NCBI RefSeq assembly: GCF_000384295.1
Contig: NZ_KB913037.1
Coordinates: 908,762-972,761 of the forward strand
DNA: 64,000 nt
Reading direction: 5' to 3'
From: Amycolatopsis balhimycina FH 1894
GTDB taxonomy: Bacteria; Actinomycetota; Actinomycetes; Mycobacteriales; Pseudonocardiaceae
Positions 14,268-33,614 of this stretch are shown in pieces. Position numbers and translations under genes: made by a program. The notes under the pieces were generated by a model, which saw only the letters and a program-made list of their open reading frames with translations, had not been told where the DNA came from and did no database searches. The number at the start of each line of letters is the position of its first letter. Within the stretch, counting starts at the first letter, position 1.

Positions 14268-14275
14268 GGCCGCGC

Positions 14276-16515: not shown

Positions 16516-16544
16516 TCTGCCTGACGAGCCCGCCGGAGCCCAGT

Positions 16545-16573
16545 GCCCGGGCCGGAAAGTTTCCGGCCCGGGC
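16545..16573. terminator. Perfect palindrome downstream of yebC
   Basis: A 29-bp perfect inverted repeat (14-bp arms GCCCGGGCCGGAAA and its complement around a single G) sits 29 bp after the yebC stop on the leftward strand. The very stable GC stem is a plausible transcription terminator for the pdxT/yebC unit, although no T-run follows. Confidence 0.65.
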
Positions 16574-16601
16574 GGGGAATCCTTACTGGACAAGGGAAAA
16601 C

Positions 16602-17357: not shown

Positions 17358-17398
17358 CTCTCCTCCATCTGTTCCGTACCCCGGGCGGGCACCGCGTC

Positions 17399-18019
17399 TC
17401 AGCCGGCCTTTCGCACCAGGTCGACGAACAGCCGGTGCACCCGCACGTCGGGCGTGAGTTCCGGGTGGAACGCGGTCGCCAGCACCGCCCCCTGCCGGAC
17501 CGCGACGATCCTAGCGGTGTCCTCGTCCACGCCGGGCACGCCGCTGACGGTGGCCAGCACCTCGACGCCGTCACCGGCCTTCTCGACCCAGGGAGCGCGG
17601 ATGAACACGGCGTGCACGGGCGGCGTTTCGATGCCCGCGAAGTCGAGGTCGGCCTCGAAGGAGTCGACCTGCCTGCCGAAGGCGTTGCGCCGGACGACGA
17701 CGTCGAGCCCGCCGAGCTGCTGCTGGTCGGGCCGCCCGTCGAGGGTCTGCCGCGCGAGCAGGATCATCCCGGCGCACGAGCCGAACGCGGGCAGCCCCTC
17801 GGCGATCCGCGCCCGCAGCGGCTCGAGCAGTTCGAAGCTCTCCAGCAGCCGTGACATCGCGGTCGACTCGCCACCGGGCAGCACCAGACCGTCTACTTCG
17901 GACAACTCGGCGGCGCGGCGCACGGGCTTGGCCCGCGCACCCGCTTCGGCCAGCATCGCGACGTGCTCACGCACGGCACCCTGCATGGCGAGCACCCCGA
18001 CCACCGGCTCCGACGACAA
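17399..18019 (-). CDS. pdxT: Pyridoxal 5'-phosphate synthase glutaminase subunit PdxT
   Basis: A 206-residue class I glutamine amidotransferase that releases ammonia for PLP synthesis by PdxS. The N-terminus [14 protein letters not shown] is typical, [14 protein letters not shown] is the glycine strip, the nucleophile Cys lies in [13 protein letters not shown], and the His/Glu pair is in TAFHPELT near the C-terminus. The triad is intact. In related actinomycetes pdxS lies one gene away. Here pdxS is at 29972, so the two PLP-synthase subunits are split by about 12 kb of inserted DNA. Confidence 0.95.
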
Positions 18020-18099
18020 CCCGACCTCCCGAAAGACCTTCCCACCAGCCTAGACGCACGGGCCCGGCGGCTTACCGGCAGGTCAGCCCCGGTCCGCAC

Positions 18100-18172
18100 C
18101 GCCGCGAATGACTCATTCGCGGCGCCGGCGCCCGTGACCCAAGCGCACCAATGCCACATTGGGGCGCCGGCG
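18100..18172. repeat. Adjacent palindromes between pdxT and azlD
   Basis: A near-perfect palindrome at 18100-18124 (12-bp arms centred on GAATGACTCATTC) is followed by a second hairpin at 18148-18162 (CCAATG-CCA-CATTGG). Both are flanked by the direct repeat GGCGCCGGCG (about 18121-18130 and 18163-18172). This 179-bp gap marks the left edge of the DNA that separates pdxT from pdxS. The elements may be terminators or a dispersed intergenic repeat. Confidence 0.7.
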
Positions 18173-18198
18173 ACCGGACAACAGCGTGAGCCGGGCCC

Positions 18199-18519
18199 TC
18201 AGGGCACGCCGGCCAGCCTGAGCAGCGCCGCCGTCGCCGCGGCGGCCACCACCACCAGCACGAACGGCGCCTTCCGCCACGCCAGCACCCCGGCGACCAG
18301 CACCCCGGCCGGCCGGGCGAAGCCCGCGAAGCCGTGCCCCTCCGTCAGCGCGCTGACCGCGACCAGCGCCGCCAGCAGCACCACCGCCGCCAGCGCCATC
18401 AGCCGTTCCGCTCGAGGCGACAGTTTCACCCGGCTGCGCAGCACCGGGCCGGCGAACCGGAACGCGAACGTCCCCAGCGCCAGCACCGCCGTGCCGATCA
18501 GCAGCTCCACCCCGTCCAT
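18199..18519 (-). CDS. azlD: AzlD-family branched-chain amino acid export subunit
   Basis: A 106-residue hydrophobic protein with about three to four membrane segments, of the AzlD family that partners AzlC to export branched-chain amino acids or analogues. The segment AFRFAGPVLRSRVKLSPRAERLM is typical. ATG 18519 shares its A with the azlC stop (TGATG) and has AGGAGG 7 nt upstream, so it is translationally coupled to azlC. Confidence 0.88.
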   Translation of the reverse strand: MDGVELLIGTAVLALGTFAFRFAGPVLRSRVKLSPRAERLMALAAVVLLAALVAVSALTEGHGFAGFARPAGVLVAGVLAWRKAPFVLVVVAAAATAALLRLAGVP

Positions 18520-19211
18520 CAGCACGCCTCCTGCAGTTCGGGCTCCTTCGCCGCGACGCCCACGACGACGCCCGCCAGGGCGAGCAGCACCGGCAGCCCG
18601 GCCGGCAGGAACGGCGTCGCGGCCAGCGCCACCACCACCCCGGCCAGCACCGGCAGCCGCGCCGCTCGGTCCCGCAGTGACGGCAGCACCAGCGCCAGCA
18701 GCACCGCCGGGAACGCCGCGTCCAGGCCGAACACGTCCGTGTCGCTGATCGCCGTCCCGGCGAACGCGCCGGCGACCACGCCGAGGTTCCAGCAGGCGAA
18801 CAGGCCGATCCCGCAGGCCCAGTACGCCGCACGGCGGCGGTGCGCCTCGCGCTGGGCCAGGGCGAACGCGACCGATTCGTCGATCATCAGGTGGCTGCCG
18901 GCCAGCCGGGCCGTCCACCGCTTGCCCAGGACGTCGCCGATCGCGAAGCCGAACGGCAGGTGGCGCGCGTTGGCCAGCAGGCCGGCGAGCACGGCCGCGA
19001 ACGGGTTGCCGCCGGCGGCCACGATGCCGACGAACATGAACTGCGACGCCCCGGCGAAGACCAGCAGCGACATCAGCATCGGCAGCCACAGCGGAAAGCC
19101 CGAGCTCACCGCGATGGCGCCGTAGGAGACCCCCACGAGACAATCGGCGAGACAGACCAGGCCGATGTCACGGGCGAGGCCCCGATCGAGTGTTCGCCAT
19201 ATCGAACGCAT
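18519..19211 (-). CDS. azlC: AzlC-family branched-chain amino acid exporter
   Basis: A 230-residue membrane protein of the AzlC family with about five to six hydrophobic segments. Family features include GVSYGAIAVSSGFPLW, FAGASQFMFVGIVAAGGN and NARHLPFGFAIGD. With AzlD it should form an exporter of branched-chain amino acids in the cytoplasmic membrane. The gene diverges from an XRE/cupin regulator across a 68-bp gap holding a perfect palindrome, a common arrangement for azlCD. Confidence 0.9.
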   Translation of the reverse strand: MRSIWRTLDRGLARDIGLVCLADCLVGVSYGAIAVSSGFPLWLPMLMSLLVFAGASQFMFVGIVAAGGNPFAAVLAGLLANARHLPFGFAIGDVLGKRWTARLAGSHLMIDESVAFALAQREAHRRRAAYWACGIGLFACWNLGVVAGAFAGTAISDTDVFGLDAAFPAVLLALVLPSLRDRAARLPVLAGVVVALAATPFLPAGLPVLLALAGVVVGVAAKEPELQEAC

Positions 19212-19237
19212 GTATTCTACAGTGAACGACAGGCCAC

Positions 19238-19257
19238 CTGTTCGTCAAGACGAACAG
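19238..19257. promoter_or_regulatory. Palindromic operator between azlC and XRE/cupin regulator
   Basis: CTGTTCGTC-AA-GACGAACAG is a perfect 9-2-9 inverted repeat located 26 bp upstream of azlC and 22 bp upstream of the regulator start. It is a likely binding site for the divergently encoded XRE-family regulator controlling both directions. Confidence 0.75.
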
Positions 19258-19279
19258 ATCGACCGATGGAGCGAACGGA

Positions 19280-19843
19280 ATGTCACAGGAGACCACCGGA
19301 GCACCGCTGGAGATCATCGCGGCGTCGCTGCGCCGCGAGCGGACCCGCGCGGGACTGTCCCTGACCGAGGTCGCGCGCCGCGCCGGCCTGGCCAAGTCGA
19401 CGCTGTCGCAGCTCGAGTCCGGCACCGGCAATCCCAGCGTCGAGACGCTGTGGGCGCTCGGCGTCGCCCTCGACGTCCCGTTTTCCCGGCTGGTCGAGCC
19501 GGAGCGGCCGAAGGTCCGCGTGGTCCGCGCCGGCAAGGGCCCGACGGTGTTCGCCGAGCACTCCGACTACGCGTGCACCCTGCTGTCGGCGTGTCCCACC
19601 GGCGCCCGGCGGGACATCTACATCGTCCGCGGTGAGCCGGGCACGCCGCGGCGCTCCGACCCGCACATGACCGGCGTGGTCGAGCACATCGTGCTCTGTG
19701 CGGGCCGGGCGCGCATCGGCGTCCTGGACGCCCCGGAGGAACTGCACCCGGGCGACTACATCTCCTACCCCGGCGACGTCCCCCACATCTTCGAAGCCCT
19801 CGAGCCGGGTACCTACGGCGTCGAGATCTCCGAGTACATCTAG
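19280..19843 (+). CDS. XRE-family regulator with cupin sensor domain
   Basis: A 187-residue protein with an N-terminal helix-turn-helix (LSLTEVARRAGLAKSTLSQLESGTGNPSVETLWAL at about 25-59; the recognition region is GLAKSTLSQLE) and a C-terminal cupin domain (HPGDYISYPGDVPHIFEAL). Such regulators bind a small ligand in the cupin and commonly sit beside azlCD. Divergence from azlC and the palindrome at 19238 suggest control of amino-acid export. The stop is 18 bp from the end of a convergent gene. Confidence 0.9.
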   Translation: MSQETTGAPLEIIAASLRRERTRAGLSLTEVARRAGLAKSTLSQLESGTGNPSVETLWALGVALDVPFSRLVEPERPKVRVVRAGKGPTVFAEHSDYACTLLSACPTGARRDIYIVRGEPGTPRRSDPHMTGVVEHIVLCAGRARIGVLDAPEELHPGDYISYPGDVPHIFEALEPGTYGVEISEYI

Positions 19844-19860
19844 GACGTACATCCAGGACG

Positions 19861-20961
19861 TCACGCGGTCTCTCCGCCGGCCTCCGCCTTCGGACCGGTC
19901 AGCAGTTCCGCCTCCAGACAGGCCCTCCGGTTCCGGATCCGGGCCTCCTCCGTCTCGCTCCGCAGTCGCGCCTCGCGCATCGGATCGCACGAGGAGCAGT
20001 GCGCCAGCTCCGCCTCGTACAGCGTGCCGTCCGTCGGGAGGGTCACCTGCCGGGCGTCCATGACCTCCTCGAGCGGCCGCGGCAGCACGTCGCCGACGCG
20101 CTCCATGGCGCGCTCGAGTTCCGCCGCCTTGTCCTCGATGGACCGCCAAGGCGTGTCGCCGATGCGCCACTCGATCGACTCGACCCTGCTCGACGCGGAG
20201 TACACCTCCAGCACCCGCCGCACGTAGTAAGTGACGGCGTAGCAAGGGTTTTCGTTGCGGAGGGTCCGCCGCGTCGTCGTCTGGCTGTCGGCTTCGTCGA
20301 AGGTGGAGACCACGACCGACCGTTCCGCCTCGGTGGACTGTGCGGCGGTGATCGCGTTCTGGGTGAACTGGGAACTCGCCGTCCGCACCGAGGCACCGCT
20401 GGCCACCGTCGTCTCGGTCGCGACCCCGAATTCGCCGCTCACCTGGGGTGCGCCGAAGAAGCCGGCGAGCCCGCCGCCCACGGATACCGACGTGTCGGCC
20501 CGCGTGCGGATGTCCACCAGGCTGTTCGTGTACGCCGACGCCGACGAGAACCTGCTGGTCTCGGACAGCGCGCTCATCGTCTGCCGGAACGACGAATGCA
20601 CCGACAGCCGTTGCTCCGCGGCCCGCACCCGGCGGTACCGGTCGAATTCGGAAACCTCCACCGACTCGCCGGGCAGCAGGGTGACCGTGTACAGCAAGGG
20701 CCCCTGCTGCCTGCCCACCAGGCTGAGCGCGTGCTGGTAAGTGATCCTGATTTCCAGCCGGCCCTGGTCGAACCGGTCGAGCGCGAACACCCGGCCCTCG
20801 TAGAAGTACTGGGCCCGGTCGTAGGGCAGCCAGGGAACCGGTGCCGGGCCGCCGCATTCGCCCGGGATCGGCTCCTCACACCCGCCGCCACAGCCGGAAC
20901 AATCACCGCACCCTTTCCGTTTCTCCCCCGCAGCAGGGTGCTTCTTCTCTTTCGCGGCCAT
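19861..20961 (-). CDS. Cys-rich protein of unknown function in the CHAT/sigma locus
   Basis: A 366-residue protein that I do not recognise. The N-terminus is basic and Cys-rich, with C18, C21, C24, C28 and C36 (KGCGDCSGCGGGCEEP), and a second CxxC (HCSSC) lies near the C-terminus, so metal binding or disulfides are possible. The middle (about 110-235) is Ser/Thr/Ala/Gly-rich with many small hydroxylated residues and little hydrophobic content (SETSRFSSASAYTNSL, ETTVASGASVRTASSQF). The C-terminal 60 residues are charged and probably helical. No signal peptide or membrane segment is evident. It is the last gene of a leftward group (subtilase-like, sigma factor, beta-rich protein, this gene), 80 bp after its neighbour. 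Confidence 0.75.
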   Translation of the reverse strand: MAAKEKKHPAAGEKRKGCGDCSGCGGGCEEPIPGECGGPAPVPWLPYDRAQYFYEGRVFALDRFDQGRLEIRITYQHALSLVGRQQGPLLYTVTLLPGESVEVSEFDRYRRVRAAEQRLSVHSSFRQTMSALSETSRFSSASAYTNSLVDIRTRADTSVSVGGGLAGFFGAPQVSGEFGVATETTVASGASVRTASSQFTQNAITAAQSTEAERSVVVSTFDEADSQTTTRRTLRNENPCYAVTYYVRRVLEVYSASSRVESIEWRIGDTPWRSIEDKAAELERAMERVGDVLPRPLEEVMDARQVTLPTDGTLYEAELAHCSSCDPMREARLRSETEEARIRNRRACLEAELLTGPKAEAGGETA

Positions 20962-21041
20962 TTTTCCTCCTCCGTTCCGGCACCCTTCATGCCGTTATCG
21001 GACGGGGGACGGAACTGCGGCCGTGATACGCGGCGGAACCG

Positions 21042-21503
21042 CTAGACTGCCGTCCAGTCCGTGAGCACGATGTGTCCCGTCCCGACGCGCAGACGCAGCC
21101 TGAACCGTCCCGCCGGCTTGGGCCGGACGACGAACCAGCCGACTTCGTCGACCGGCACGGTCATGACGGTCCCGTCGCGGGTTTCGACGTCGAGTTCGCC
21201 CGGCTGCGCGGGCACGACCTGCCCGTGGAGGTCGCCGGAGCCGACCTCGAGCTCGATCGTGAAGTCGCGGCCGGAAAAGGTGAGCGCACGCAATGGGGCC
21301 GAGTCGGCGCGCACCTCCGTCGACCGCCCGGCGGTGACGGAATCGTAGGAAAGCGTGGCGAGTTCCGCGTCGAGATCGCGCCACGAGAACGCGGCTTTGC
21401 CTGCCTCGACGAACCGGGCGGGCACCTCCCGCGCAGTCCGGAGCGCCTCGCCCAGCTCGGCGAGCAGCTCTTCGTCGCCCCTCCAGTGGTCCGCCATGGC
21501 CAT
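21042..21503 (-). CDS. Small beta-rich protein coupled to sigma factor
   Basis: A 153-residue protein with a helical start (DEELLAELGEALRTAREVPARFVEAGKAAF; the repeated AL/EA pattern is at about 10-35) and a beta-strand-rich C-terminal part (FTIELEVGSGDLHGQVVPAQ then VRPKPAGRFRLRLRV) resembling the carboxypeptidase-regulatory or Ig-like folds. ATG 21503 overlaps the sigma-factor stop as TGATG, so the two are made together. A tightly coupled partner of a sigma factor is often its anti-sigma or regulator; here that is only inference, since no zinc-finger anti-sigma motif is present. Confidence 0.75.
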   Translation of the reverse strand: MAMADHWRGDEELLAELGEALRTAREVPARFVEAGKAAFSWRDLDAELATLSYDSVTAGRSTEVRADSAPLRALTFSGRDFTIELEVGSGDLHGQVVPAQPGELDVETRDGTVMTVPVDEVGWFVVRPKPAGRFRLRLRVGTGHIVLTDWTAV

Positions 21504-22072
21504 CACGCTTCCCCGGGATCGACGAACGACGCCAAGGCCCGGCTGCCGCGGAGCGCGGCGAGGCACCGCGAGCGGGACGGGCCGATCCCCCCGATCGGCA
21601 TGGCCAGTCTCCCCGAAATCTCGGCGTAGGGCAGCCGCGGATCGCTGAACAGGAGGGTCAGGAGCTCCCGGCAGCGGGACGGCAGCTCGGCGAACGCCTG
21701 GCGCAGCGCGATGAACCGCTCCTGCTTCAGCAACTCGGCATCGGCCTCCGGAGCCGCCTCGTCGACGAGCCGGCCGTCGTCGGGCACGGGCTGCGTCCGC
21801 TGCTGCTCCCGCAGGAACCGCAGGCATTCCCGGCGGGTGACGGTCGCCACCCAGCCCGGCAGCGCGGCCGGCTCACGCACCGACGGCAGGCCTTCGACGA
21901 GCCTGAGCCACACGCTCGCCCCGACGTCGTCGCAGTCGGCCGGGGACAGCCGGTAGCGGCGGCAGATCGACCACACCAGGGGCGCGTACCGCTCGACGAG
22001 CTGGTCCCAGGCCCGGTTGTCGCCGTCCCGCGCCCGCTTGACCAGCGCGATCACGGCAGGATCGTCTCGCAT
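21503..22072 (-). CDS. ECF-like sigma-70 family RNA polymerase sigma factor
   Basis: A 189-residue sigma factor with region 2 (RDGDNRAWDQLVERYAPLVWSICRRY through WLRLVEGL, about 15-62) and region 4 (LTLLFSDPRLPYAEISGRL then IGPSRSRCLAALRG), joined by a linker rich in Asp/Glu. It lacks regions 1 and 3, as in ECF sigma factors. ATG 22072 has GAGG about 7 nt upstream. It sits 26 bp after a subtilase-like gene and overlaps a small partner. Such sigma factors are usually inactive until released, and a divergent TPR-CHAT protease gene makes proteolytic release a reasonable hypothesis. Confidence 0.88.
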   Translation of the reverse strand: MRDDPAVIALVKRARDGDNRAWDQLVERYAPLVWSICRRYRLSPADCDDVGASVWLRLVEGLPSVREPAALPGWVATVTRRECLRFLREQQRTQPVPDDGRLVDEAAPEADAELLKQERFIALRQAFAELPSRCRELLTLLFSDPRLPYAEISGRLAMPIGGIGPSRSRCLAALRGSRALASFVDPGEA

Positions 22073-22098
22073 GGCACCACCTCGGGTCGAAGGGCCGG

Positions 22099-22956
22099 TC
22101 AGCGCTTGCCGCACGCGATATCGTGGGCGATCTTGCCCGTGACGGCGGCGGCGGCGAACGACGTCCCGCTCCACCGCGCGAAACCCTCGAAGTTCTGCTC
22201 CGACGCGTCGGACAGCCGCACCGGCTTGTCGAGGTAGTAGCCGTTGACCTGCAGGCCGTCGGCTTCGGTGTCGACCCAGTCCCGTTTCATGCTGAAGTCC
22301 GCGCCGGCCGCCCCGACGGCGAGGACACCGTTCATCGCCGCGGGCCAGATCTGCCACGGCGGCCGGGCGATGTGGCCGAGGTTGCCCGCGGCGGCCACGA
22401 CGAAGGTGGCGTGCCCGGCCCAGACCGAATAGATGCCCTTCCGGTCGGGCTCCGCCGCCACGCCGTCCTCGGCCTCGATCTGATCTTTCGGGAAATCGGG
22501 GTGCCAATACAGCGGTGTGTCCACGATGCCGACGCGAACCGGGTTCTCCGCCGTGACCTCGTAGGTGTTACCGGGCGGGTCGATCCGGTCACCGAAATCG
22601 GGATCACCGAGCCCCTTGTGCTGCGGGTAGCCGATCAAGGTGTCCCGGTTCTTCCCGATCGCCGGAAGGGCTCCGAGTTCGCTCGCGAACTGATTGCGCA
22701 CCTCGTACAACAGCACGTCGAGATCGGTGAACTGCCGGCCGCCGCGGCGCTCGAGCGCGGAGATCTCCTGCCAATACTTCGCGCGGGTCTTCGTCGCGAA
22801 CTCCGCGATTCCGGCCAGGTCCCTTATCAAGGACAACTGCAGCACGTCGTCGGTCTCCGGTTCCGTTGCTCCCGCCCAGACCCGGAGATCCTTCAGTTTG
22901 TTTCCCACGTCTTCGACGTACCGGGAGTCGACAATCAGTTCGGTCTGCACAGTCAT
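22099..22956 (-). CDS. Subtilase (S8)-like protein with internal deletion
   Basis: A 285-residue protein with an unusual N-terminal region (1-135, mixed helical) followed by a compressed subtilase core. The catalytic Asp is D146 in VGIVDTPLYWHPDF, His is H182 in WAGHATFV, the oxyanion Asn is N192 in VVAAAGN, and Ser is S266 in WSGTSFAAAAVTG. His and Asn are only 10 residues apart, against about 90 in subtilisin, so about 80 residues of the central sheet are missing in frame. All four active-site motifs remain, but activity is doubtful. No secretion signal is seen. ATG 22956 has GGAAGG 6 nt upstream. It heads the leftward operon and diverges from the CHAT gene. Confidence 0.82.
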   Translation of the reverse strand: MTVQTELIVDSRYVEDVGNKLKDLRVWAGATEPETDDVLQLSLIRDLAGIAEFATKTRAKYWQEISALERRGGRQFTDLDVLLYEVRNQFASELGALPAIGKNRDTLIGYPQHKGLGDPDFGDRIDPPGNTYEVTAENPVRVGIVDTPLYWHPDFPKDQIEAEDGVAAEPDRKGIYSVWAGHATFVVAAAGNLGHIARPPWQIWPAAMNGVLAVGAAGADFSMKRDWVDTEADGLQVNGYYLDKPVRLSDASEQNFEGFARWSGTSFAAAAVTGKIAHDIACGKR

Positions 22957-23071
22957 GATCTGCCTTCCGCTCGTACTCGGCCCATGCTCGACGGAGGCGT
23001 CCCTCACCCGTTTGATTCCAGCATCGGAAAATTAGTTCCGGATACCGCCAACACGGTTCATGCTGTCAGGC

Positions 23072-25696
23072 ATGAACCCGACCGCGGCCCTCGATCAGGC
23101 ACTCGAGGCGTTGCGCCGTGCCGACGTCGACGCCGGTCGCGCCGTGCCGGTCGCGGAACGGGCCAAACGGCAGGCCGACGCCGAGGGCGACGACGCCGCG
23201 GCCTCGATCGCCGAGCGGGCCTGGGGCCGCGCATTGCTGCAATGCGGGAACGTCGACAGCGCGATCAGTCACCTGCGAGATTCCGTAGAATTCGCGGAGA
23301 AATCCGGCTCCCCCGCGCTCGCCGGCGAAACACGAATCCCGCTCGCGGCGGCACTGCTCCAGCGCGGAGAACCCCACGAAGCGCTGCGGAACATCGACGA
23401 CGCCGTCGCTTCGCTCACCGGGGCCGGGCACGCGCGGGCGCGCGCCCAGCGCGCCGACATCCTGCACCAGATCGGCAGGCTGACCGAGGCCCACACCGAG
23501 TACGAGTCCGCCATTTCGCTGCTGCGTGACGGCGGTGACCTGCTGAACCTGCAACGCGCGTTGGTCAACCGCGGCATCCTGCACACCGAACGGTACGTCT
23601 TCCCCGCCGCCGAGGCCGACCTGGAGGAGGCCCGCGAGCTGGCCGGGCGGCTCGGCCGGAAACTGGCCACGGCGATCATCGACGAGAACCTCGGCTTCCT
23701 CGAGACCGTGCGCGGCGACGTTCCCGCCGCGCTCGCCCGGCTCGGCCGGGCCGAGCAGGCGATCGGCGAACTGGGCGGCCAGCTCGGCCCGGTGTTCTCC
23801 GACCAGGCCGAACTGCTGCTGTCGGTGGGCGCGCGCGGCGAGGCCGCCGACGCCGCCCAGCGAGCCGTCCTCGCGTTCGAACGGGACCAGCGGCACCTGC
23901 TCGTGCCCGCCGCGCGCCTGTTGCTCACCCAAGCCGCGGTGCTCGGCCGCGACTGGACGACCGCGCTGGACCAGGCGCGCCAGGCCCACCGGGACTTCGT
24001 CGCCCAGCAGCGCGCGGAATGGGCGGCGCTGGCCCAGCTGGGCGTGCTGCGGGCCCAGCTGGCGCTCGGGCATGACACGCCGATCTCCGGCGAGGACGCC
24101 GAGACCATGGTGGCCACCCTGAGCTCGGCGGGCTGGCCCGCCGCGGCCCTCGAAGCCCACCTCGCCGCCGCCCGGCTGGCCGGCTCCCGCGCCGAAGCCA
24201 AGCGGAGCCGGTTCCACCTCCACCGCGCCGGCGCGGTGGACCGGCGCGGGCCGGCCGCGCTTCGCGCGCGCGGCTGGTACGCGCGGGCCCTGCTGGCCTG
24301 GGAGGACGGGAACGCCCAGGCCACGGACCGGGCGGTGCGGGCCGGGCTGCGCATCCTCGACGAGCACGCCGCGTCGCTCGGGGCGACCGACCTGCGGGCC
24401 CATTCCGCCGCGCACCGCAGCGAGCTGAGCGAACTCGGGCTGCGGCTCGCCCTCCGCTCCGGCGAGCCGGCACGGGTCTTCGAGTGGGCCGAACGCGGCC
24501 GGGCCGGCCGGCTCGCCCACCGGCCGGTGCGCCCGCCCGACGACCCGGAGCTCGCCGCCCTGCTCGCCGAACTGCGCGCCACGGTCCGGGAGATCGACCA
24601 GCCCGGGCGCGCGGCGCCGGACCTGCGGCACCGGCAGTCCCTGCTCGAACGCCGGATCCGGGACCGGGCGCGGCTCTACCCGGGCGTGCCCGGGCAGCCG
24701 CCGGCCACCCCGGTCAAGGTCGCCGACCTCGACCTCGGCGATCGCGCGCTCATCGAGTTCGCGCGGGCGGACGGCGCCCTGCACGCCCTCAGCCTGGTCG
24801 GCGGGCGGCTGCGGCTGCGGGCGCTGGGCGCCGCCGACGACGACGTCGCCGAGCTGGTGGCCCGCCTGGCGTTCGCCCTCCGGCGCCTCGCGCACCGCAC
24901 CGGCAGCGCGCAGTCCCGGGCCGCCGCGCTGACGTTGCTGCAGCGGACCGCGGAGGTGCTGGACCGGACCCTTTTCGGGCTCCTGCCGGAGATCGGTGAC
25001 CGGCCGCTCGTCCTGGTGCCGACCGGTTCGCTGCACAGTGTGCCGTGGTCGGTGCTGCCGTCCTGCTCGGGGCGTCCGGTCACGGTGTCGCCGTCGGCCA
25101 CGCTGTGGCACGCCGCCGCCGAACGCCGCGACGCGGTCCTCGGCACGGTCGCGGTCGCCGCCGGGCCCGGCCTGGCCGGAGCCCACGACGAAGCACAGGC
25201 CGTGGCGGCGTTGCACGGCGTCGCCCCGCTCGCGGGCGAAGCCGCCACCGTCGAGGCCGTGCTGAAGGCCGTGGGCACGGCCGACACCCTGCACCTGGCC
25301 GCGCACGGCAGGCTCGCCGTGGACCAGCCGCTGTTCTCCGACCTGCGGCTGCACGACGGCCCGCTCGTCGTGCACGACCTGGAACGGCTCGACCGGGTGC
25401 CGCGGACCGTCGTGCTCGCCTCCTGCGACAGTGGCCGGTCGGTGGTGTGCACGGGGGACGAGCTCCTCGGCCTCAGCGCCACGTTCATGGGATCGGGCAC
25501 GGTTCACCTCATCGCGTCCGTGGTTCCCGTGCCCGACGCGGAAACCCGGCCGCTGATGGTCGAATTCCACCGGGGGCTCGCGCGCGGCGCCGCGCCGGCG
25601 GCCGCGCTGGCCGACGCCCAGAAGTCGTTGCGCGGCAACGGGCTGGAAGCGCTCGTCGCCGCCGCGGGATTCGGCTGTTTCGGAGCCGGTCATTGA
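23072..25696 (+). CDS. TPR-repeat CHAT-domain protease
   Basis: An 874-residue cytoplasmic protein. The N-terminal two thirds (about 1-480) is an array of TPR-like helical pairs (repeated Ala/Leu/Gly pattern, for example DAIAHLRD-type segments and SEYAE-like pairs from about residue 60 onward). The C-terminal third is a CHAT caspase-like protease domain with the dyad His745 in LHLAAHGRL and Cys785 in LASCDSGR, followed by GDELLGLSATFMGSGTVHLI. The dyad is intact. CHAT proteases act as regulated proteases in conflict systems; the TPR part usually senses a partner. Start at ATG 23072 rather than 23060 is tentative. It diverges from the subtilase/sigma operon (115-bp gap) and precedes lodA-like genes. 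Confidence 0.9.
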   Translation: MNPTAALDQALEALRRADVDAGRAVPVAERAKRQADAEGDDAAASIAERAWGRALLQCGNVDSAISHLRDSVEFAEKSGSPALAGETRIPLAAALLQRGEPHEALRNIDDAVASLTGAGHARARAQRADILHQIGRLTEAHTEYESAISLLRDGGDLLNLQRALVNRGILHTERYVFPAAEADLEEARELAGRLGRKLATAIIDENLGFLETVRGDVPAALARLGRAEQAIGELGGQLGPVFSDQAELLLSVGARGEAADAAQRAVLAFERDQRHLLVPAARLLLTQAAVLGRDWTTALDQARQAHRDFVAQQRAEWAALAQLGVLRAQLALGHDTPISGEDAETMVATLSSAGWPAAALEAHLAAARLAGSRAEAKRSRFHLHRAGAVDRRGPAALRARGWYARALLAWEDGNAQATDRAVRAGLRILDEHAASLGATDLRAHSAAHRSELSELGLRLALRSGEPARVFEWAERGRAGRLAHRPVRPPDDPELAALLAELRATVREIDQPGRAAPDLRHRQSLLERRIRDRARLYPGVPGQPPATPVKVADLDLGDRALIEFARADGALHALSLVGGRLRLRALGAADDDVAELVARLAFALRRLAHRTGSAQSRAAALTLLQRTAEVLDRTLFGLLPEIGDRPLVLVPTGSLHSVPWSVLPSCSGRPVTVSPSATLWHAAAERRDAVLGTVAVAAGPGLAGAHDEAQAVAALHGVAPLAGEAATVEAVLKAVGTADTLHLAAHGRLAVDQPLFSDLRLHDGPLVVHDLERLDRVPRTVVLASCDSGRSVVCTGDELLGLSATFMGSGTVHLIASVVPVPDAETRPLMVEFHRGLARGAAPAAALADAQKSLRGNGLEALVAAAGFGCFGAGH

Positions 25697-25708
25697 AATC
25701 GCTCGGTG

Positions 25709-25798
25709 TACTAATCCGGCCAAAAGTAGGCCGACCCCCCGCGCGGGACGCAACCGTTGCTACAAAGCCATTCGGCCGTGACTGTGGTCGGATTAGTA
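25709..25798. promoter_or_regulatory. Inverted repeat and putative control region upstream of lodA-like gene
   Basis: In the 199-bp gap between the CHAT gene and the oxidase gene, TACTAATCCG (25709-25718) and its exact complement CGGATTAGTA (25789-25798) form 10-bp arms 70 bp apart. Inside the left half a small hairpin CGGCC-AAAAGTA-GGCCG (25717-25733) could end CHAT transcription. A direct repeat GTAACG follows (about 25796 and 25811). Together these suggest the oxidase genes have their own regulated promoter. Confidence 0.55.
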
Positions 25799-25895
25799 AC
25801 GATCGGCACAGTAACGTTCTTTTCCCGGCCGCGACTCTGGAGGTCGAGGCGGCGTGAAACCGTGGTTCGCGAGATTTCTGTCGAGGTGGGCTCAA

Positions 25896-27341
25896 ATGGG
25901 TGTGGTCGAGGTACGCATTCACCCGGCGATCGGTATCGCGCGCGTGGGGAACAGCGTGGACGAGTATTTCATCGGCCCCGAGCGGCAGTGGGACCGTTCG
26001 GCACCGGCGGACGGGTCCTACAAGGACCGCTCGCACCGGATCAAGCGCCAGGTCGCGCGGTTCCGGCTGTTCGCCTACGACGAACGGGGCGTCCCCACCG
26101 AACTGGTCGAAGGACCCGGCGTCGAGATCACCTGGACCGTCCACCTCGTCAACGCGAAAGCGGCCGCCCGGCTGTTCCGGCCCGATTCGACGCGGAACAG
26201 TGGCTATTCCGGCGACGCGCTCCGCGACCTGGTGATCGATCCCGGGCCGCGCACCGTCGACCGGCTCCATCGTCGCGCCGAGTTCGGCACCGGGAAGTTC
26301 ATCCTCAAGGAGTGCCGCCCCCAGCGGGTTCCGCTGGGGGAAATCCGGCTGGACGACGACGGGCGGCTCTTGGTTTTCGGCGGAGCCGGCGCCACCGGGT
26401 CCCCCGCCCACACGTCGCTGTCCGTCCAGGACGACAGCGACAACTGGTACGACGACATCGCCGACGGCCCGGTCACGGCGACCGTCCGGATCAACGGCGC
26501 GGACCACCCGGTGGCCGGGTCCTGGGTGATCACCGCTCCCCCGAACTTCGCGCCGCCGGTCGGCAGCGCGATCCGGCTCTGGGACGCGATGTTCGACGCG
26601 CTCGCGACAGAGCAGCAGAAATCCGCGCCGCCGTCCTACGTGGACGACATCTACCCCATCCTGCAGGCCGCGATCGACTCCGGCGCGGTCGCTTCGGTCG
26701 CCAAGCCGCACCACCACTTCCGGCACCCCGTGTCACCCCGCGAGCTCGACGAACAGCTCGCCAAAGTGGGGCACATGCCGCGGCTCGCGTCCGGCCGCGG
26801 CGCTGCGCTGGACCTGCCGCTGACGCCGACCCAGAAACAGCGGATGCGGGTCTGGGCGAAGGCCGGGAACCCGGACATCTCCTGGGACATGACGTGGGTG
26901 GACGGACCACCGGTGTCCAAGGACTTCACGCCCGACGGCATGGACAAGGCCGCACTGGAAAACTGCGTCGGCGGCGCGCTCCGCCCCGGCATCGAGGCCG
27001 GGGAGTTCCTCCTCGAACCCGCGAGGTACGGGCCGATCGAGACGGTCAACGGGCAGCCGTCGTTCCGGCTCGACCACAACCAGGTCGAACCCGGTCAGGT
27101 GACCGCGGGCATGTCGCTGCCGTGGCAAGCCGACTTCCACGCGTGCAACCCGCTCTGGTGGCCGGCGCCCCGGCCCGGCCAGGTCGTGCCGGCCGGCTCC
27201 CCGCCCGGCGCCGCGCCGGTTCAGTGGAACCGGGGGTACAGCAGACCCGTGTTCGTGAATGGCGGCTGGACCAGGATGGGGTTCGTCACGCGGCAGGCCG
27301 AAGGACTCGTCGAAACCGACAGCGACCCGCTGAACCAGTGA
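25896..27341 (+). CDS. LodA/GoxA-family quinone (CTQ) amine oxidase
   Basis: A 481-residue member of the LodA family, whose characterised members oxidise amino acids (LodA: lysine epsilon-amine; GoxA: glycine) and release hydrogen peroxide, using a cysteine tryptophylquinone made from their own Cys and Trp. The N-terminus VVEVRIHPAIGIARVGNS is the family hallmark. WQADFHACNPLWWP supplies Cys417 with Asp413 four residues before it, the spacing of Asp512/Cys516 in LodA, and NGGWTRMGFV supplies Trp458. It is shorter than LodA (726 residues), as in other LodA-like subgroups. ATG 25896 has GAGGTGGG 5 nt upstream; an alternative GTG at 25854 also has an SD-like GGAGG. It overlaps lodB by 4 nt. Confidence 0.88.
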   Translation: MGVVEVRIHPAIGIARVGNSVDEYFIGPERQWDRSAPADGSYKDRSHRIKRQVARFRLFAYDERGVPTELVEGPGVEITWTVHLVNAKAAARLFRPDSTRNSGYSGDALRDLVIDPGPRTVDRLHRRAEFGTGKFILKECRPQRVPLGEIRLDDDGRLLVFGGAGATGSPAHTSLSVQDDSDNWYDDIADGPVTATVRINGADHPVAGSWVITAPPNFAPPVGSAIRLWDAMFDALATEQQKSAPPSYVDDIYPILQAAIDSGAVASVAKPHHHFRHPVSPRELDEQLAKVGHMPRLASGRGAALDLPLTPTQKQRMRVWAKAGNPDISWDMTWVDGPPVSKDFTPDGMDKAALENCVGGALRPGIEAGEFLLEPARYGPIETVNGQPSFRLDHNQVEPGQVTAGMSLPWQADFHACNPLWWPAPRPGQVVPAGSPPGAAPVQWNRGYSRPVFVNGGWTRMGFVTRQAEGLVETDSDPLNQ

Positions 27342-28495
27342 GGCACCTCGACGTCGCGGTGATCGGCGGCGGTCCGGCCGGCTCGGCGACCGCGCTGCTG
27401 CTGGCGCGCCTGGGCGCCGACGTCGGGTTGTACGACGCCCCGGGTTGCGAGCGGCCGCGCCTGGGCGAGTCCCTGCCACCGGCCGTGAACCCCGTGCTGC
27501 ACGAACTCGGTGTCGGAGCCGGCTTCGCCGCGCTCGGTGCGCTGCCGTCGTACGGGACGTCCGGTGCTTGGGGCACCGACGAGGTGTCGTCACAGTCGTT
27601 CCTGTTCAGTCCACACGGTACTGGCTGGCACGTCGACCGGGCCCGCTTCGACGAGATGCTCGCGACCGCCGCGGCACGGGCCGGCGCGACGGTCTTTCCG
27701 TCGCGGGTCCGGCGAGTGCACCGGATCGCGGGCGGCTTCACCGTCGACGCGGCGATCCCCGCCCATGCGGACGCGGTGGTGGACGCCACCGGCCGGGCGG
27801 CCCGGATCTCCCGCGAACTCGACGCCCGGCCGGCCCGGCACGACCGGCTGGTCTGTGCGGCCCGGGTGGTCCCCCGCCGCGGCGACGAGCCGTTCCGCGA
27901 CACCTTCGTGGAGGCCGTGGCGGAGGGCTGGTGGTATTCGGCGCCCCTGCCGGACGGTCACCGGATCGTGGCCTGCTTCACCGACGCACCCATCGCGGCA
28001 CGGGCCGGACTGGCGACGCCGGCCGGGTGGCGCGCGGCCCTGGTGGCCACCACCTACGTCCGGCAGTTCGTGCGCGGCCGGGCGGAGAGCCCCGTCCGGG
28101 TCGTCACCGCCGCCGGCCACCGGCTGCGGCCCTGCGCCGGGCCAGGCTGGCTGGCGGTCGGGGACGCCGCCTTCGCGACGGACCCGCTTTCGTCCGGCGG
28201 GGTGACTTCCGCGTTGCGAACGGCGATCGCCGCGGCGGCTGCCCTGGCCGACGGCGACCGGGCGAACTACCTCGCTCTGGTCGACGCCATGGCAGCCGGC
28301 TACTACGCCCGCCATTCGGAAATCTACGGCTGGGAGCGCCGGTTCCCCACTTCGGCGTTCTGGCAGGCACGCCGACCCGACGTCACGAACTCGACGACGT
28401 CGCCGGAACCACGTCGACCGGCGGCGGGTCCTCCGATGTCCGCCCGTCGCTCTTGCTCTTCGAGTACAAGGCCGCGGTCCCGTCCGGAGTTTTGA
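27338..28495 (+). CDS. LodB-like FAD-dependent oxidoreductase
   Basis: A flavoprotein of about 385 residues related to tryptophan halogenases. The FAD-binding motif [21 protein letters not shown] is at the N-terminus (motif GGGPAGS), with [11 protein letters not shown] and the GD motif [19 protein letters not shown] later. LodB proteins are needed to form the quinone cofactor of LodA, and the GTGA overlap with the lodA-like stop supports this pairing. The last 113 bp overlap the holin-like gene on the other strand; the C-terminal tail (Ser/Arg/Pro-rich after [10 protein letters not shown]) looks like read-through beyond an older stop. Confidence 0.85.
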
Positions 28496-28676
28496 TCACG
28501 CCTCCGATCGACATCAGCAGCGACAGCACCGTCGCCGTGCCCACCGTGGAAAAGAACGTGAGCCAGTGCATGTCGAGCAGCCCCGACCCGGCGGCGACGA
28601 ACACCGATGCGCCCGCCTGCGCGGCCGTCCGGACCGAACGTTCGAGCGCGTCTTTCCAAAAACCGACAGTCCACAT
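28383..28676 (-). CDS. Holin-like small membrane protein (phage r1t type)
   Basis: A 97-residue protein beginning [20 protein letters not shown], a pattern seen in actinophage r1t-type holins, followed by two hydrophobic segments (about 21-36 and 40-60, [11 protein letters not shown] and [18 protein letters not shown]) and a hydrophilic Ser-rich tail. Holins oligomerise in the cytoplasmic membrane and form holes. Here there is no endolysin next to it, and it lies between lodB and a lipase gene. ATG 28676 has GGAGG (as AGGTGT/GGAGGTG) just upstream. The 3' end overlaps lodB by 113 bp in convergent orientation. Confidence 0.75.
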
Positions 28677-28858
28677 GATGACACCTCCGCCAAGACAGAG
28701 CGCCTTCCGGCGGCCGTGATACGGACTCCCGGGCGAGGAGAAATCACCGACCGGAGGTCGATCCGGAAATCAGGAAACCAAGGCGGGATTCGTATTTTCG
28801 CGCGTAACACGCCACCGTCCAGGTGCGACTCACAATGATCCGACGCCGGGGAGGAAAC

Positions 28859-29899
28859 ATGGCGAAACGTCTGGTGATCTGCTGCGACGGCACCTGGAAC
28901 AAACTAGGCCAGCCGAATCCCACGAACGTGGCGAAGGTCAAGAACGCGGTCGCCGAAACGGACTCCGCCGGCATTCGCCAGAAGGCCTTCCACGGCGACG
29001 GCGTCGGCACCGGGCCGAACCTGTGGGACCACCTCACCGGTGGCGCTTTCGGGTGGGGACTCTCGGCCAAGGTGCAGGACGCCTACGGGTTCATCGTCGA
29101 CAACTACGAGCCCGGCGACGAACTCTTCTTCTTCGGCTTCAGCCGCGGCGCGTTCACCGCGCGCAGCACCGTGGGCTTCATCCGGAACTGCGGCGTCCTC
29201 CGCCGCGAGAACGCAGGCCTCGTCAAAGAGGCCTACCAGCTTTATCGCGACCGGGACACCTCGGCCACCGGCCCGGACAGCCCGAAGGCCACCGAGTTCC
29301 GCCGGAAATACGCCCACGAAGACAGGACGCCGATCCGGTTCATCGGGGTCTGGGACACCGTCGGCGCACTGGGCATCCCCTTGAGCGGCGGCCGCCTGCT
29401 CAACGTGCTGAACCGGCGCTGGCAGTTCCACGACACGCGGCTGTCCTCGATCGTGCAATCGGCCTTCCAGGCCCTGGCCGTGGACGAGCACCGCCCGTCG
29501 TTCGAACCGGCGGTCTGGGAGCCGTCACAGAGCGGCCAGGAGCACGAACAGGTCTGGTTCGCCGGGGACCACTCCGACGTCGGCGGCGGGCATCCGGTGT
29601 CCGACCTTTCGGACCTCGCCCTGCGCTGGATGACCGACCGGGCGCACAAGTGCGGCCTCGCCTTCGAGCCGGACGCCTTCACCGGCTTGCTCCCCGGCAA
29701 CCCGCTCGGCGTACTGCATGATTCGCCCAACGCGTTCTTCCGCTTGTTCGGCTCGGTGGTTCGCGGCATCGGCACGGTGGACCCGCAGTCCGAGTTCGCC
29801 GCGTCCACCGCGGTGGACCGCCACGGGCAGATGCAGCCGCCGTATCGGCCTGACAACCTCGTCGCCTACCTCGCGGCGCACCGCACCATGACGGTGTAG
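28859..29899 (+). CDS. DUF2235 alpha/beta hydrolase (Tle1-like lipase)
   Basis: A 346-residue DUF2235 protein. It begins KRLVICCDGTWNKLGQPNP, the family signature, and has the nucleophile motif FFGFSRGAFTAR (Ser95). IGVWDTVGALG and WFAGDHSDVGGGHP match the acid and base regions. The family includes Tle1 phospholipase effectors of type VI secretion, but actinomycete members have no known secretion machine; no signal peptide is visible. ATG 28859 has an excellent ribosome-binding site, GGGGAGGAAAC. It is the last gene before pdxS and ends at a bidirectional terminator. Confidence 0.88.
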   Translation: MAKRLVICCDGTWNKLGQPNPTNVAKVKNAVAETDSAGIRQKAFHGDGVGTGPNLWDHLTGGAFGWGLSAKVQDAYGFIVDNYEPGDELFFFGFSRGAFTARSTVGFIRNCGVLRRENAGLVKEAYQLYRDRDTSATGPDSPKATEFRRKYAHEDRTPIRFIGVWDTVGALGIPLSGGRLLNVLNRRWQFHDTRLSSIVQSAFQALAVDEHRPSFEPAVWEPSQSGQEHEQVWFAGDHSDVGGGHPVSDLSDLALRWMTDRAHKCGLAFEPDAFTGLLPGNPLGVLHDSPNAFFRLFGSVVRGIGTVDPQSEFAASTAVDRHGQMQPPYRPDNLVAYLAAHRTMTV

Positions 29900-29922
29900 A
29901 CCGCATCCCAGCGCACGAGAGA

Positions 29923-29950
29923 GGCCCCGTGGACAGGCGTTCACGGGGCC
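29923..29950. terminator. Bidirectional terminator between DUF2235 gene and pdxS
   Basis: GGCCCCGTG (29923-29931) and CACGGGGCC (29942-29950) form a 9-bp stem with a 10-nt loop in the 72-bp gap between two convergent genes. On the leftward strand it is followed by TCTCTCGTG. It marks the right edge of the DNA inserted between pdxT and pdxS. Confidence 0.7.
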
Positions 29951-29971
29951 CCTTGCGCGATCGACGTGGCT

Positions 29972-30895
29972 TTACCAGCCGCGCTCGGCCAGCCGGTGCG
30001 GCTCCGGGACCTCTTCGACGTTGATGCCGACCATGGCCTCGCCGAGACCGCGCGAGACCTTCGCGAGCACGTCCGGGTCGTCGTGGAACGTCGTCGCCTT
30101 GACGATCGCCGCGGCGCGCTGGGCCGGGTTACCGGACTTGAAGATGCCCGAGCCGACGAACACGCCTTCGGCGCCGAGCTGCATCATCATCGCCGCGTCG
30201 GCCGGGGTCGCGATGCCGCCCGCGGTGAACAGCACCACCGGCAGCTTGCCCGCCTCGGCCACTTCGCGGACCAGCTCGTACGGCGCCTGCAGTTCCTTCG
30301 CCGCGACGAACAGCTCGTCCTCGGGCAGCGACTGCAGCCGCCGGAGCTCGCCGCGGATCTTCCGCATGTGGGTGGTGGCGTTGGAGACGTCGCCGGTGCC
30401 CGCCTCGCCCTTGGAGCGGATCATCGCCGCGCCCTCGGTGATCCGGCGCAGCGCCTCGCCGAGGTTGGTCGCCCCGCAGACGAAGGGCACGGTGAACGCC
30501 CACTTGTCGATGTGGTTGGCGTAGTCGGCCGGGGTGAGCACCTCGGACTCGTCGATGTAGTCGACGCCGAGGGACTGCAGGACCTGCGCCTCGACGAAGT
30601 GGCCGATGCGGGCCTTCGCCATCACCGGGATCGAGACGGCCTCGATGATGCCGTCGATCAGGTCGGGGTCGCTCATCCGCGCGACGCCGCCCTGGGCGCG
30701 GATGTCCGCGGGCACGCGCTCCAGCGCCATCACCGCGACGGCGCCGGCGTCTTCGGCGATCTTGGCCTGCTCGGCGGTGACCACGTCCATGATCACGCCG
30801 CCCTTGAGCATCTCGGCCATGCCGCGCTTCACCTTGGCGGTGCCGGTGACGGACTGGACGGGGCCGCTGGTGGGAGTGGTCTGCTGCTCGGACAC
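29972..30895 (-). CDS. pdxS: Pyridoxal 5'-phosphate synthase lyase subunit PdxS
   Basis: A 307-residue (beta/alpha)8-barrel enzyme that builds PLP from ribose 5-phosphate, glyceraldehyde 3-phosphate and ammonia supplied by PdxT. Conserved parts include [46 protein letters not shown] and [16 protein letters not shown]; the lysines that carry intermediates lie in KARIGH and further on. GTG 30895 is chosen because AAAGG sits 7 nt upstream; 30913 is an in-frame alternative. It is separated from pdxT (17399) by about 12 kb, although the two proteins form one complex. Confidence 0.96.
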
Positions 30896-30983
30896 GACGG
30901 GGCCTTTCGACACGAAATCGGGGGTTACGCTTCCGAGCGTAAGTCGGCGGTGGACCCTTCAGGCAGGCCAGTACGCGGGTATC

Positions 30984-31967
30984 TCAGCAGTCCACTTCGC
31001 CGGTGCCCGCGACCAGGGCTTCCGCGAGCGGAGTACGCGCGTAGAGCACGTGACGTCCGGCACGGTGCCCGCTGACCAGCGCCGCAGCCTTCAGGATGCC
31101 GAGGTGCTGCGACACCGCGCCGGTGCTCAGCCCGGTCCGCCGGGCCAGCTCCGCGGTGGACGCCGGGGCGCCCAGTTCGGCCAGCAGCATGGCCCGGCCA
31201 CGGCCCACGACGGCGGCCAGCGCCCCGGGCGCGGTGGCCGTGCCGGTCTCCCACAGCGTGGCGATGCCGCGCGGCGGGTAGCGCAGCACCGGCTGCCAGC
31301 GCGCGTCGGTCTTGGAGAACACCCGCGGCCAGACGAACGCCGACGGCACGAGCACGAGACCGCGCCCGTCCAGCGGGACCGCCGCGCGCAGGTGCCGGTG
31401 CGCGACCGTCAGCGTGCCGCTCTGCCAGCGGACCAGCGGCGTGAGGTCGTTGAACAGTTCGGCGGCCCCGCCCTGGGCCAGCAGCCGGGACCGGTGCAGC
31501 ACGTCGGCCTCGAGCAGCGCGCGGATCCGGGGCCACTCGGGGGCGAGCACGAGGTCCCAGTAGCGCTCCATCAGCGTCGCGAGCCGCTCGAGACCCGCCT
31601 CCGGGTCGCGGTGGAAGCGGCTCAGCGCGGGCGAGCGCGGCCCGGACATCGCGTCCAGCTCGCGCCGGACGAAGCGGGGCGGCACGTCGCGCAGGTCGGC
31701 GAGCTCGTCGGCCAGCTCGGGCAGGGGCGTCGACGGCGTCCCGGCCAGGAAGCCGGGCAGGTGCCGCAGCGGGACGAGGTCGCGCAGGAGCCCGATGTCG
31801 AGGCCGGCTTCGCCGAGCGCCACGGTGGCGCGCTTGACCCACGGCAGGTGCAGGGCGTGCTCGCCCGGGGAGTTCAGGACGCGGACGCTCGCCACGATCT
31901 CCCACGCCGGGGAGAACGCGAACCGGGTGTGTGCCAGGTCTTCGGTGGAAAAAGCCAGGTCGAGCAC
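30984..31967 (-). CDS. DUF5937/ArsR-type transcriptional regulator
   Basis: A 327-residue protein. The long N-terminal part (about 1-240) matches the DUF5937 type, with FSPAWEIVASVRVL near the start and RWQPVLRYPPRGIATLW late. A C-terminal winged helix of the ArsR type follows (LGAPASTAELARRTGLSTGAVSQHLGILKAAALVSG, about 265-300; recognition helix TGAVSQHLGIL). No metal-binding Cys cluster is visible, so metal sensing is unlikely. The target is unknown. It lies between pdxS and a FAD oxidase gene, 38 bp from the latter. Confidence 0.85.
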   Translation of the reverse strand: MLDLAFSTEDLAHTRFAFSPAWEIVASVRVLNSPGEHALHLPWVKRATVALGEAGLDIGLLRDLVPLRHLPGFLAGTPSTPLPELADELADLRDVPPRFVRRELDAMSGPRSPALSRFHRDPEAGLERLATLMERYWDLVLAPEWPRIRALLEADVLHRSRLLAQGGAAELFNDLTPLVRWQSGTLTVAHRHLRAAVPLDGRGLVLVPSAFVWPRVFSKTDARWQPVLRYPPRGIATLWETGTATAPGALAAVVGRGRAMLLAELGAPASTAELARRTGLSTGAVSQHLGILKAAALVSGHRAGRHVLYARTPLAEALVAGTGEVDC

Positions 31968-32005
31968 GCGCTGCCTCTCTGCCTCGGGTCCGGCGCAGTC
32001 TAGGT

Positions 32006-33442: not shown

Positions 33443-33614
33443 CGCCATGTCCTCCCCCTGCCGCACGCCCCCGGGCCCCTGCCGCGCTTCCCGGACCCCT
33501 GCCGCGCGCCTGGGCATTCGGCTGGTCCCCGGAGCCCTGCCTTGCCGTGACCAGGGTAGCGGGTGTGTGATCGAGGACACATCCCGTACATCAGCCGTTC
33601 GCCGAGGAGTCGTC

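Follow-up and report, generated by a model that had tools for sequence, protein, structure and literature searches.

The window analyzed here is a 64,000-nucleotide stretch of the 10.86-Mb genome of the soil actinomycete Amycolatopsis balhimycina FH 1894 (contig NZ_KB913037.1, positions 908,762 to 972,761), in which an ECF-type sigma factor gene lies among genes for two protease-like proteins and, together with its neighbors, is associated with a promoter element, GTATCA-N18-CYGTC. A leftward, operon-like set runs from a gene for an S8 subtilase-like protein through the sigma factor gene to a gene for a small protein, the sigma gene ending on the very base at which the small gene begins (21503); a Cys-rich gene lies beyond. 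The rightward set consists of genes for a TPR-CHAT protease, a LodA-like protein, and a LodB-like protein, and a holin-like gene overlaps the end of the LodB gene tail to tail (Table 1). This gene set had been recognized in a first-pass annotation of the locus and is present as described there, except that the holin-like gene, which had been listed with the rightward genes, lies on the minus strand. The start of the Cys-rich gene was taken as 20961 instead of 20790, the start given by a simple gene caller, because a GGAGG stretch precedes the ATG at the former position. Gene starts in relatives are those of the same caller, and the holin gene, which it missed, was included manually in the counts of sites described below.

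An inserted block and its conserved core

The limits of the locus are defined by comparison with G162, the closest by pdxS (99%) among 24 same-genus genomes. Window positions 8905–19841 and 28724–33448 match abutting segments of L094 (reversed), 3347–14270 and 14271–19001, with 94.5% and 94.7% identity. Because G162 lacks exactly the sequence 19842–28723, the Cys-rich, small-protein, sigma, subtilase, TPR-CHAT, LodA, LodB, and holin genes constitute one inserted block, located between XRE and DUF2235-pdxS genes. The protease, the sigma factor, and the pore gene had been proposed to belong together, and they did arrive in a single insertion, with the sigma factor probably driving the pore gene. 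The DUF2235 gene had been assigned to the same unit and is excluded from it by the empty site: it stands beside pdxS in G162, where the other genes are absent, and in G161 (87%). The XRE-pdxS interval (window 19843–29972) varies within the genus, being empty, occupied by DUF2235, or filled with differing gene sets in 20 loci, and none of these 20 loci (from 24 genomes searched, that of the window included) carries at the pdxS site a cassette composed of the genes of the core. In a different genus, G227 has a cassette with a 57% identical CHAT protein between XRE and pdxS, which lacks the Cys-rich, LodA, holin, and DUF2235 genes.

Table 1. Genes, promoter elements, and boundaries at the locus, in window positions.
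Feature	Position	Strand	Evidence
Inserted block, 8,882 bp, eight genes	19842–28723	.	not present at the same place in relative G162
Cys-rich protein, 366 residues, function assigned by no family	19861–20961	-	no family match
Element GTATCA-N18-CCGTC, about 40 nucleotides upstream of the Cys-rich gene	21001–21029	-	exact pattern; matrix score 10.7, threshold 12
Small protein, 153 residues, candidate sigma partner	21042–21503	-	alignment of 11
ECF-type sigma factor, 190 residues	21503–22075	-	TIGR02937, 75.4 bits, cut-off 42.9; relatives adjoin the same genes
S8 subtilase-like protein, probably inactive	22099–22956	-	PF00082, 31.2 bits, cut-off 21.8
Element GAATCA-N18-CCGTC, with one mismatch, upstream of the subtilase-sigma-small operon	22990–23018	-	matrix score 16.4
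TPR-CHAT protease, 874–878 residues	23060 or 23072–25696	+	PF12770, 123.7 bits
LodA/GoxA-like quinoprotein amino-acid oxidase, 481 residues	25896–27341	+	PF17990, 200.7 bits; PF18417
LodB/GoxB-like flavoprotein (quinone maturase)	27338–28495	+	NF038174, 226.6 bits, under the cut-off of 400 (27338–28438 scanned)
r1t-type holin-like membrane protein, 97 residues	28383–28676	-	PF16945, 53.9 bits, cut-off 26.9; PHROG 443 (holin)
Element GTATCA-N18-CTGTC, upstream of the holin gene, on the right edge of the block	28694–28722	-	exact pattern; matrix score 17.7
DUF2235/Tle1-like protein, resident flank outside the block	28859–29899	+	87% copy next to pdxS, with no block present, in both G162 and G161

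The core of the block, comprising the subtilase-sigma-small gene set and the divergent TPR-CHAT gene, is conserved well beyond this strain. In 40 loci chosen by the small protein alone, the sigma factor was found in 39, CHAT in 35, and S8 in 34; five of the loci were without both CHAT and S8, including two that end at contig ends (L065, L070). This recount drew extra queries from the same loci, and one of these, called a subtilase by position, later scored 249 bits with a subtilase profile that includes a close relative of that query; omitting the query altered no count. The small protein occurs in 238 of 390 family genomes (E <= 1e-5), and a sample of 378 genomes of the class contains it in 71 (E <= 1e-18). 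The window and most of the 40 loci show the combination of a sigma factor with subtilase and CHAT that marks the context of ECF54, for which control by proteolysis of the sigma factor itself, without an anti-sigma factor, has been proposed, as a carboxypeptidase, a subtilase, and CHAT are conserved in its neighborhood (PMC8999054, a review citing Casas-Pastor 2021 and Huang 2015). Since it fits the ECF54 context as given in the accessible part of that account, the core is not new, contrary to the first-pass view that the assembly did not correspond to a described system. The resemblance extends to the conserved subtilase and CHAT and to the lack of an anti-sigma factor. The differences are that the same part of PMC8999054 mentions no promoter, targets, or outputs, while an element and exchangeable outputs are proposed here, and that the window’s own subtilase is damaged. 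A literature search on ECF54 returned nothing relevant besides that paper.

A second point of comparison is Craspase (Cas7-11-Csx29, Csx30, CASP-sigma), in which the genes for an ECF sigma factor and its partner are likewise associated with that for a TPR-CHAT protease, sites for the sigma factor lie within the locus, and Csx30 is described as the partner or inhibitor of the sigma factor in the portion of the paper available (PMC10028731). The present block differs in having an S8 protease and another small partner, and in the failure to recognize Cas7-11 or a Csx30-like protein in it. No Csx30-like match was obtained for its eight proteins, part of a set of ten scanned, with Pfam, NCBIfam, and PADLOC, libraries that may lack a Csx30 model, and a Cas scan confined to the block found neither Cas7-11 nor any other Cas family among the eight. 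In judging the absence of Cas7-11, it was considered that the only block proteins without a family are 366 and 153 residues long. The CHAT protein retains H745 and C785 (numbered from 23072), confirming the intact dyad reported earlier: of 57 sequences aligned, that of the window among them, 56 have both residues, and the remaining sequence is cut short and gapped there. Its comparison with solved structures gave no sequence match at E 0.001, and 12 CHAT matches were counted in the whole genome. The core matches no defense family in a PADLOC scan, which produced two weak matches, one of the subtilase and one of LmuA with LodB (E 0.0021 in both cases).

The small protein is predicted to be helical in its N-terminal part and rich in β-structure in its C-terminal part. 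Its model has a mean predicted local distance difference test (pLDDT) value of 66, with values of 86–93, taken by tens, for residues 81–140. Neither Pfam nor NCBIfam gave a significant match, the best hit of the weak model in a PDB search had an E value of 0.013, and no relation to Csx30 was detected. By analogy, the protein may be the partner or inhibitor of the sigma factor, and it could represent the carboxypeptidase of the ECF54 context. The Cys-rich protein likewise lacks matches in Pfam, NCBIfam, PDB, PHROG, and plasmid searches, and the 390 family genomes contain, besides itself, one weak relative (28%, 1.4e-6).

The subtilase gene of the window sets this copy of the module apart. The residues D, H, N, and S are kept, as in all 38 aligned sequences, so that the identification as a subtilase-like protein by PF00082 and these residues stands, but the protein is not an ordinary subtilase. 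Only 9 residues separate the catalytic His from the oxyanion Asn, compared with 81–90 in the 37 aligned relatives, and the region thus falls short of a complete catalytic core. The core is shorter by 72–81 residues than that of each relative (about 79 with respect to G131, in frame), and the C-terminus is also shorter than that of G131. In the G131 protein, the ends of the stretch that is missing from the window resemble each other (CGTCGTGGC and CGTGGTGGC), and the deletion therefore fits slippage. Judged by its sequence, the window’s subtilase is probably inactive, and this strain may accordingly have an altered or decaying form of control.

A promoter element shared among cassettes

In contrast to the core, the promoter element GTATCA-N18-CYGTC is new here. 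Many loci have GTATCA or a near form of it upstream of the subtilase gene, with a CCGT-like box 18 bases further on. The exact pattern was composed after viewing the subtilase, holin, and Cys-rich upstream regions of the window and L040, along with the subtilase upstream regions of other loci; the viewed sites are not independent evidence because the pattern was derived from them, while the GTPase sites, the GH25 sites, and the matrix test described below are independent of its derivation. Three exact matches exist in the genome from which the window comes, one upstream of the Cys-rich gene, one upstream of the holin gene, and one within a predicted coding sequence, compared with one match for the pattern read backwards. 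G131 contains the pattern twice, in both cases in its cassette (upstream of the holin and subtilase genes), and not at all backwards. A further 28 genomes yielded 27 occurrences versus 19 backwards, five of the 27 being in cassettes, where they precede a membrane GTPase gene (G152, G154, G163), a GH25 gene (G227), and a subtilase gene (G176). If one mismatch is tolerated, three matches are found in the window, and the pattern is then not rare, as 7 of 100 shuffles reach the same number.

A matrix built from 13 subtilase promoters, with the window and L040 excluded and a threshold of 12, places its two highest-scoring sites across the entire window at the holin and subtilase promoters, the next (16.0) being elsewhere. 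In 15 cassette loci, the matrix identified 10 sites directly before the starts of genes other than subtilase genes, compared with a mean of 0.84 and a maximum of 5 for 150 column-permuted matrices, and with a single such site in 31 control loci. These sites precede genes for the holin (window, G131), the membrane GTPase (G154, G163, G152, G130), GH25 (G227), a 71-residue protein containing two hydrophobic stretches (G159, with the element 121 nucleotides away), a 251-residue protein (G176), and a 206-residue protein of G040, which is lipoprotein-like by eye and is followed by LodA and LodB. Nine of the 10 are located in runs of genes directly adjoining the core, the exception being the window, in which LodA and LodB intervene. 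The element also precedes the same operon in G687 and G476, members of another family, as it does in G176. Loci L040–L059 were chosen on subtilase matches, and their subtilase content is therefore by choice.

A search of 19700–29000 found no standard sigma-70-type promoters. A comparison of the promoters within the locus, suggested at the outset, gave a divided result: the shared motif is present before the genes starting at 22956 and 28676, appears before that at 20961 as the exact pattern only, and is absent before those at 23072, 25896, and 28859. The idea that the sigma factor turns on the oxidase and the lipase is not supported, no site having been found before LodA or DUF2235.

The element also appears in exact form upstream of genes encoding similar proteins of 131–133 residues in G123, G162, and G145, and in the two genomes examined further (G162, G145) an ECF sigma factor 47–48% identical to that of the window lies about 5 kb away, with no CHAT or S8 match in the 19 kb covered. 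The loci of such orphan sigma factors (L170, 2512–8661; L171, 3010–9149) hold SARP-like and radical-SAM-like genes, recognized by eye, in addition to a 133-residue gene with the exact element. Given that the element co-occurs with sigma factors of this type, including orphan ones, we infer that it is read by ECF54-type sigma factors. Pairs of S8 and CHAT genes were also seen with no sigma match nearby (L046, L047, L048, L052, L053, L054, L059); four of these loci (L046, L047, L053, L054), which helped to train the matrix, retain a promoter-like element upstream of S8, an arrangement that suggests control in trans.

Lysis-type genes and LodA beside the cassette

The holin-like protein of the window matches the r1t-type family above the curated cut-off and is assigned to a holin group by PHROG (Table 1), and its relative in the G131 cassette is 50% identical. 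The GH25 protein of G227 is endolysin-like according to both Pfam and PHROGs. An r1t-type holin and a GH25 endolysin-like protein are features in common with phage lysis cassettes and type 10 secretion; the cassettes described here differ in containing one recognized lysis protein each instead of a full set, and in their proposed control by a protease-linked sigma factor. In two families, an element-bearing operon directly follows the small gene (L058, 11253–13911; L148, 10207–12946; L149, 10182–12870) and encodes a protein of 251–268 residues, a protein of 204–222 residues, and a hemopexin protein. The C-terminal half of the last has an E-9-D-6-T spacing similar to that of T4-type lysozymes, a likeness that no search confirmed. 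A model of this protein was matched over its hemopexin half only, the other half being mostly of low confidence. This operon was considered as a source of a T4-lysozyme-type muramidase and an M15-like peptidase and was not counted among the lysis genes, as the resemblance is one of motifs, with no support from searches.

The LodA-like protein of the window contains the LodA_N and LodA_C domains (PF17990, PF18417) and a Cys357/Trp410 pair in columns invariant in four of four aligned sequences, and an overlapping GoxB/LodB-like gene lies downstream. In oxidases of this kind a Cys and a Trp form CTQ, and from the conserved sequence we presume that W410 is equivalent to W581 of LodA. The protein has no detectable hydrophobic segment. 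A 481-residue LodA-like protein of A. balhimycina (DSM 44591) and a 1114-residue LodA with a vWA domain from A. vancoresmycina appear in PMC4417212, the accessible part of which describes the same arrangement of a LodA-like protein with the Cys/Trp pair followed by a maturase, as for LodA/LodB and GoxA/GoxB, and differs in giving no sigma-CHAT-subtilase neighborhood. Proteins of this kind with about 1,110 residues and an extra C-terminal stretch are also encoded in L083 (6593–9937), where that stretch contains a vWA domain, and in L040 (4196–7534).

LodA_N was found in 17 of the 390 family genomes (18 genes), and in four of these LodA adjoins a complete cassette, in differing arrangements: the window, G131 (two genes), G040, and G161, whose cassette is of a distant subtype (its small protein scores 53 bits with the profile). 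One of the G131 copies adjoins the holin gene beside the cassette, and one starts three nucleotides after CHAT, so that read-through from CHAT into LodA may be possible. G247 was not counted, as its cassette is complete and its LodA gene lies 5 kb away with unrelated genes between; L057 has a similar cassette and a like aminotransferase flank without LodA. G278 was also set aside, having only a sigma factor near LodA and no CHAT or S8 in the stretches examined. No cassette was present within the 19.5 kb examined around LodA in the remaining 11 genomes. Conversely, among the 14 genomes whose small proteins are the most similar (E <= 4.3e-50), LodA occurs in three, always beside the cassette, and is missing from 11. 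These association counts make LodA an optional but non-random companion of the cassette. The expectation that the neighbors would co-occur is thereby partly borne out, in that four genomes have LodA right next to a complete cassette and an element-bearing gene heads LodA-LodB in G040, although most of the homologous loci examined lack LodA, holin, and lipase. Such loci had been named in advance as a sign that the neighbors are unrelated; they are common, as the three of 14 closest genomes with LodA illustrate.

A proposed protease-gated sigma switch and its alternatives

The reading that we favor, with a probability of about 0.6, is that the block acts as a sigma switch gated by proteases, whose outputs, directed at the envelope or at lysis, are exchangeable. 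The conservation of the module, the boundaries of the block, and the element and its placement are established by computation. The block would be an ECF54-type module, in which an ECF sigma factor with its coupled small partner is held or released by proteolysis through CHAT and S8. Once active, the sigma factor would read GTATCA-N18-CYGTC promoters of its own operon, resulting in autoregulation, and of neighbors that differ from locus to locus. In the window, the main output would be the holin-like protein, probably together with the Cys-rich protein; in other genomes, these would be replaced by a GH25 muramidase, a membrane GTPase pair, the gene heading LodA-LodB, or others. A holin output may open or weaken the cytoplasmic membrane, such that the cell is killed or cytoplasmic LodA is let out. 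The binding of the sigma factor to the element, the direction of control, and the lytic or export outcome are those parts of the reading that go beyond the computed features.

Several results weigh against this reading. Database matches identify lysis families in the holin and GH25 only, and several outputs, such as the GTPase and regulator-like genes, are not lytic by homology. The 10 matrix sites amount to about seven or eight lineages, because the GTPase sites represent only two pairs of orthologs and the two holins belong to a single genus. Five of the 15 cassette loci (L044, L045, L050, L051, L055) have no non-subtilase site, and the element is scarcely seen in 17 loci with more distant cassettes of the same family (L063–L079), where two of 24 sites lie before genes, both encoding sigma factors. 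In the window itself, no matrix site was found before LodA or CHAT, the Cys-rich site scores below the threshold, three of the five best sites are scanning noise outside the block (13.9–16.0), and the subtilase looks dead.

The last observation leads to the improbable alternative that the block is a decaying remnant, whose control was broken by the subtilase deletion and which is being lost, having ceased to function. The loss of about 79 residues of the catalytic core is unique among 38 aligned sequences; however, the deletion preserves the frame, each of the remaining seven genes is an open reading frame, and the conserved catalytic residues of CHAT and LodA are intact. It is likewise improbable that only the subtilase, sigma factor, small gene, and CHAT cooperate, with an insertion hot spot having supplied the neighbors as unconnected cargo. 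The gene content of the XRE-pdxS interval does differ between strains, and most cassettes looked at are without LodA and holin, yet a common element precedes the neighbors of many cassettes and far fewer genes in controls, and LodA adjoins cassettes in four genomes in differing arrangements.

Two further explanations assign the neighbors a joint function. Holin-type outputs might serve regulated release, exporting leaderless enzymes such as LodA in a few cells or without lysis, as in type 10 secretion. We regard this as possible though doubtful: the window and G131 both have a holin and LodA beside one cassette, LodA shows no hydrophobic segment, and non-lytic holin export (PMC9527704, as far as available) and type 10 secretion have been described, but no endolysin was recognized in the window’s block and LodA is missing from most of the cassettes that do have an output. 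The full model of the first-pass annotation, in which CHAT cleaves an inhibitor and the freed sigma factor activates the oxidase, pore, and lipase jointly in a program of cell death, is very unlikely. It draws on the intact CHAT dyad, the presence of sigma, holin, and LodA in one inserted block, and the experimental precedent of Csx29-Csx30-sigma, as represented in the accessible part of PMC10028731. Against it, the lipase lies outside the block, LodA and DUF2235 are without the element, no Csx30-like or Cas protein was recognized in the block, and the S8 partner found in most loci is left out of the scheme.

Searches of the literature, covering the titles and the starts of abstracts of the matches listed and leaving most subscription papers outside their coverage, found no CHAT-sigma-subtilase system, no association of LodA with CHAT, sigma, or holin, and no ECF regulon with holin, endolysin, or caspase-like genes; the conflict systems with caspase-like and ECF parts in PMC7159879 and PMC8195603, to judge from the parts available, are distinct from this one. 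The occurrence of the same switch beside other wall or membrane genes in relatives means that it may be a general switch for lysis or protein release. A broader and more tentative proposal, which we hold with less than even confidence, is that ECF54-type modules are widespread actinobacterial protease-gated switches, in which a caspase-like CHAT protein and a subtilase act on a sigma factor and its small partner, with one conserved promoter and exchangeable envelope-attacking outputs, taken from phages (holin, muramidase) or consisting of released enzymes such as LodA. If true, this would constitute a sigma-based counterpart of caspase-triggered lysis. ECF54, so far a neighborhood with guessed control and no targets in the part of its published description that was available, would gain a testable regulon from an element that is rare in the genome, and LodA-type oxidases, which are rare in the family, would become linked to a regulatory module. 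The recurrence of lysis-type genes at the element would, moreover, suggest what the caspase-like CHAT proteases of multicellular bacteria do.

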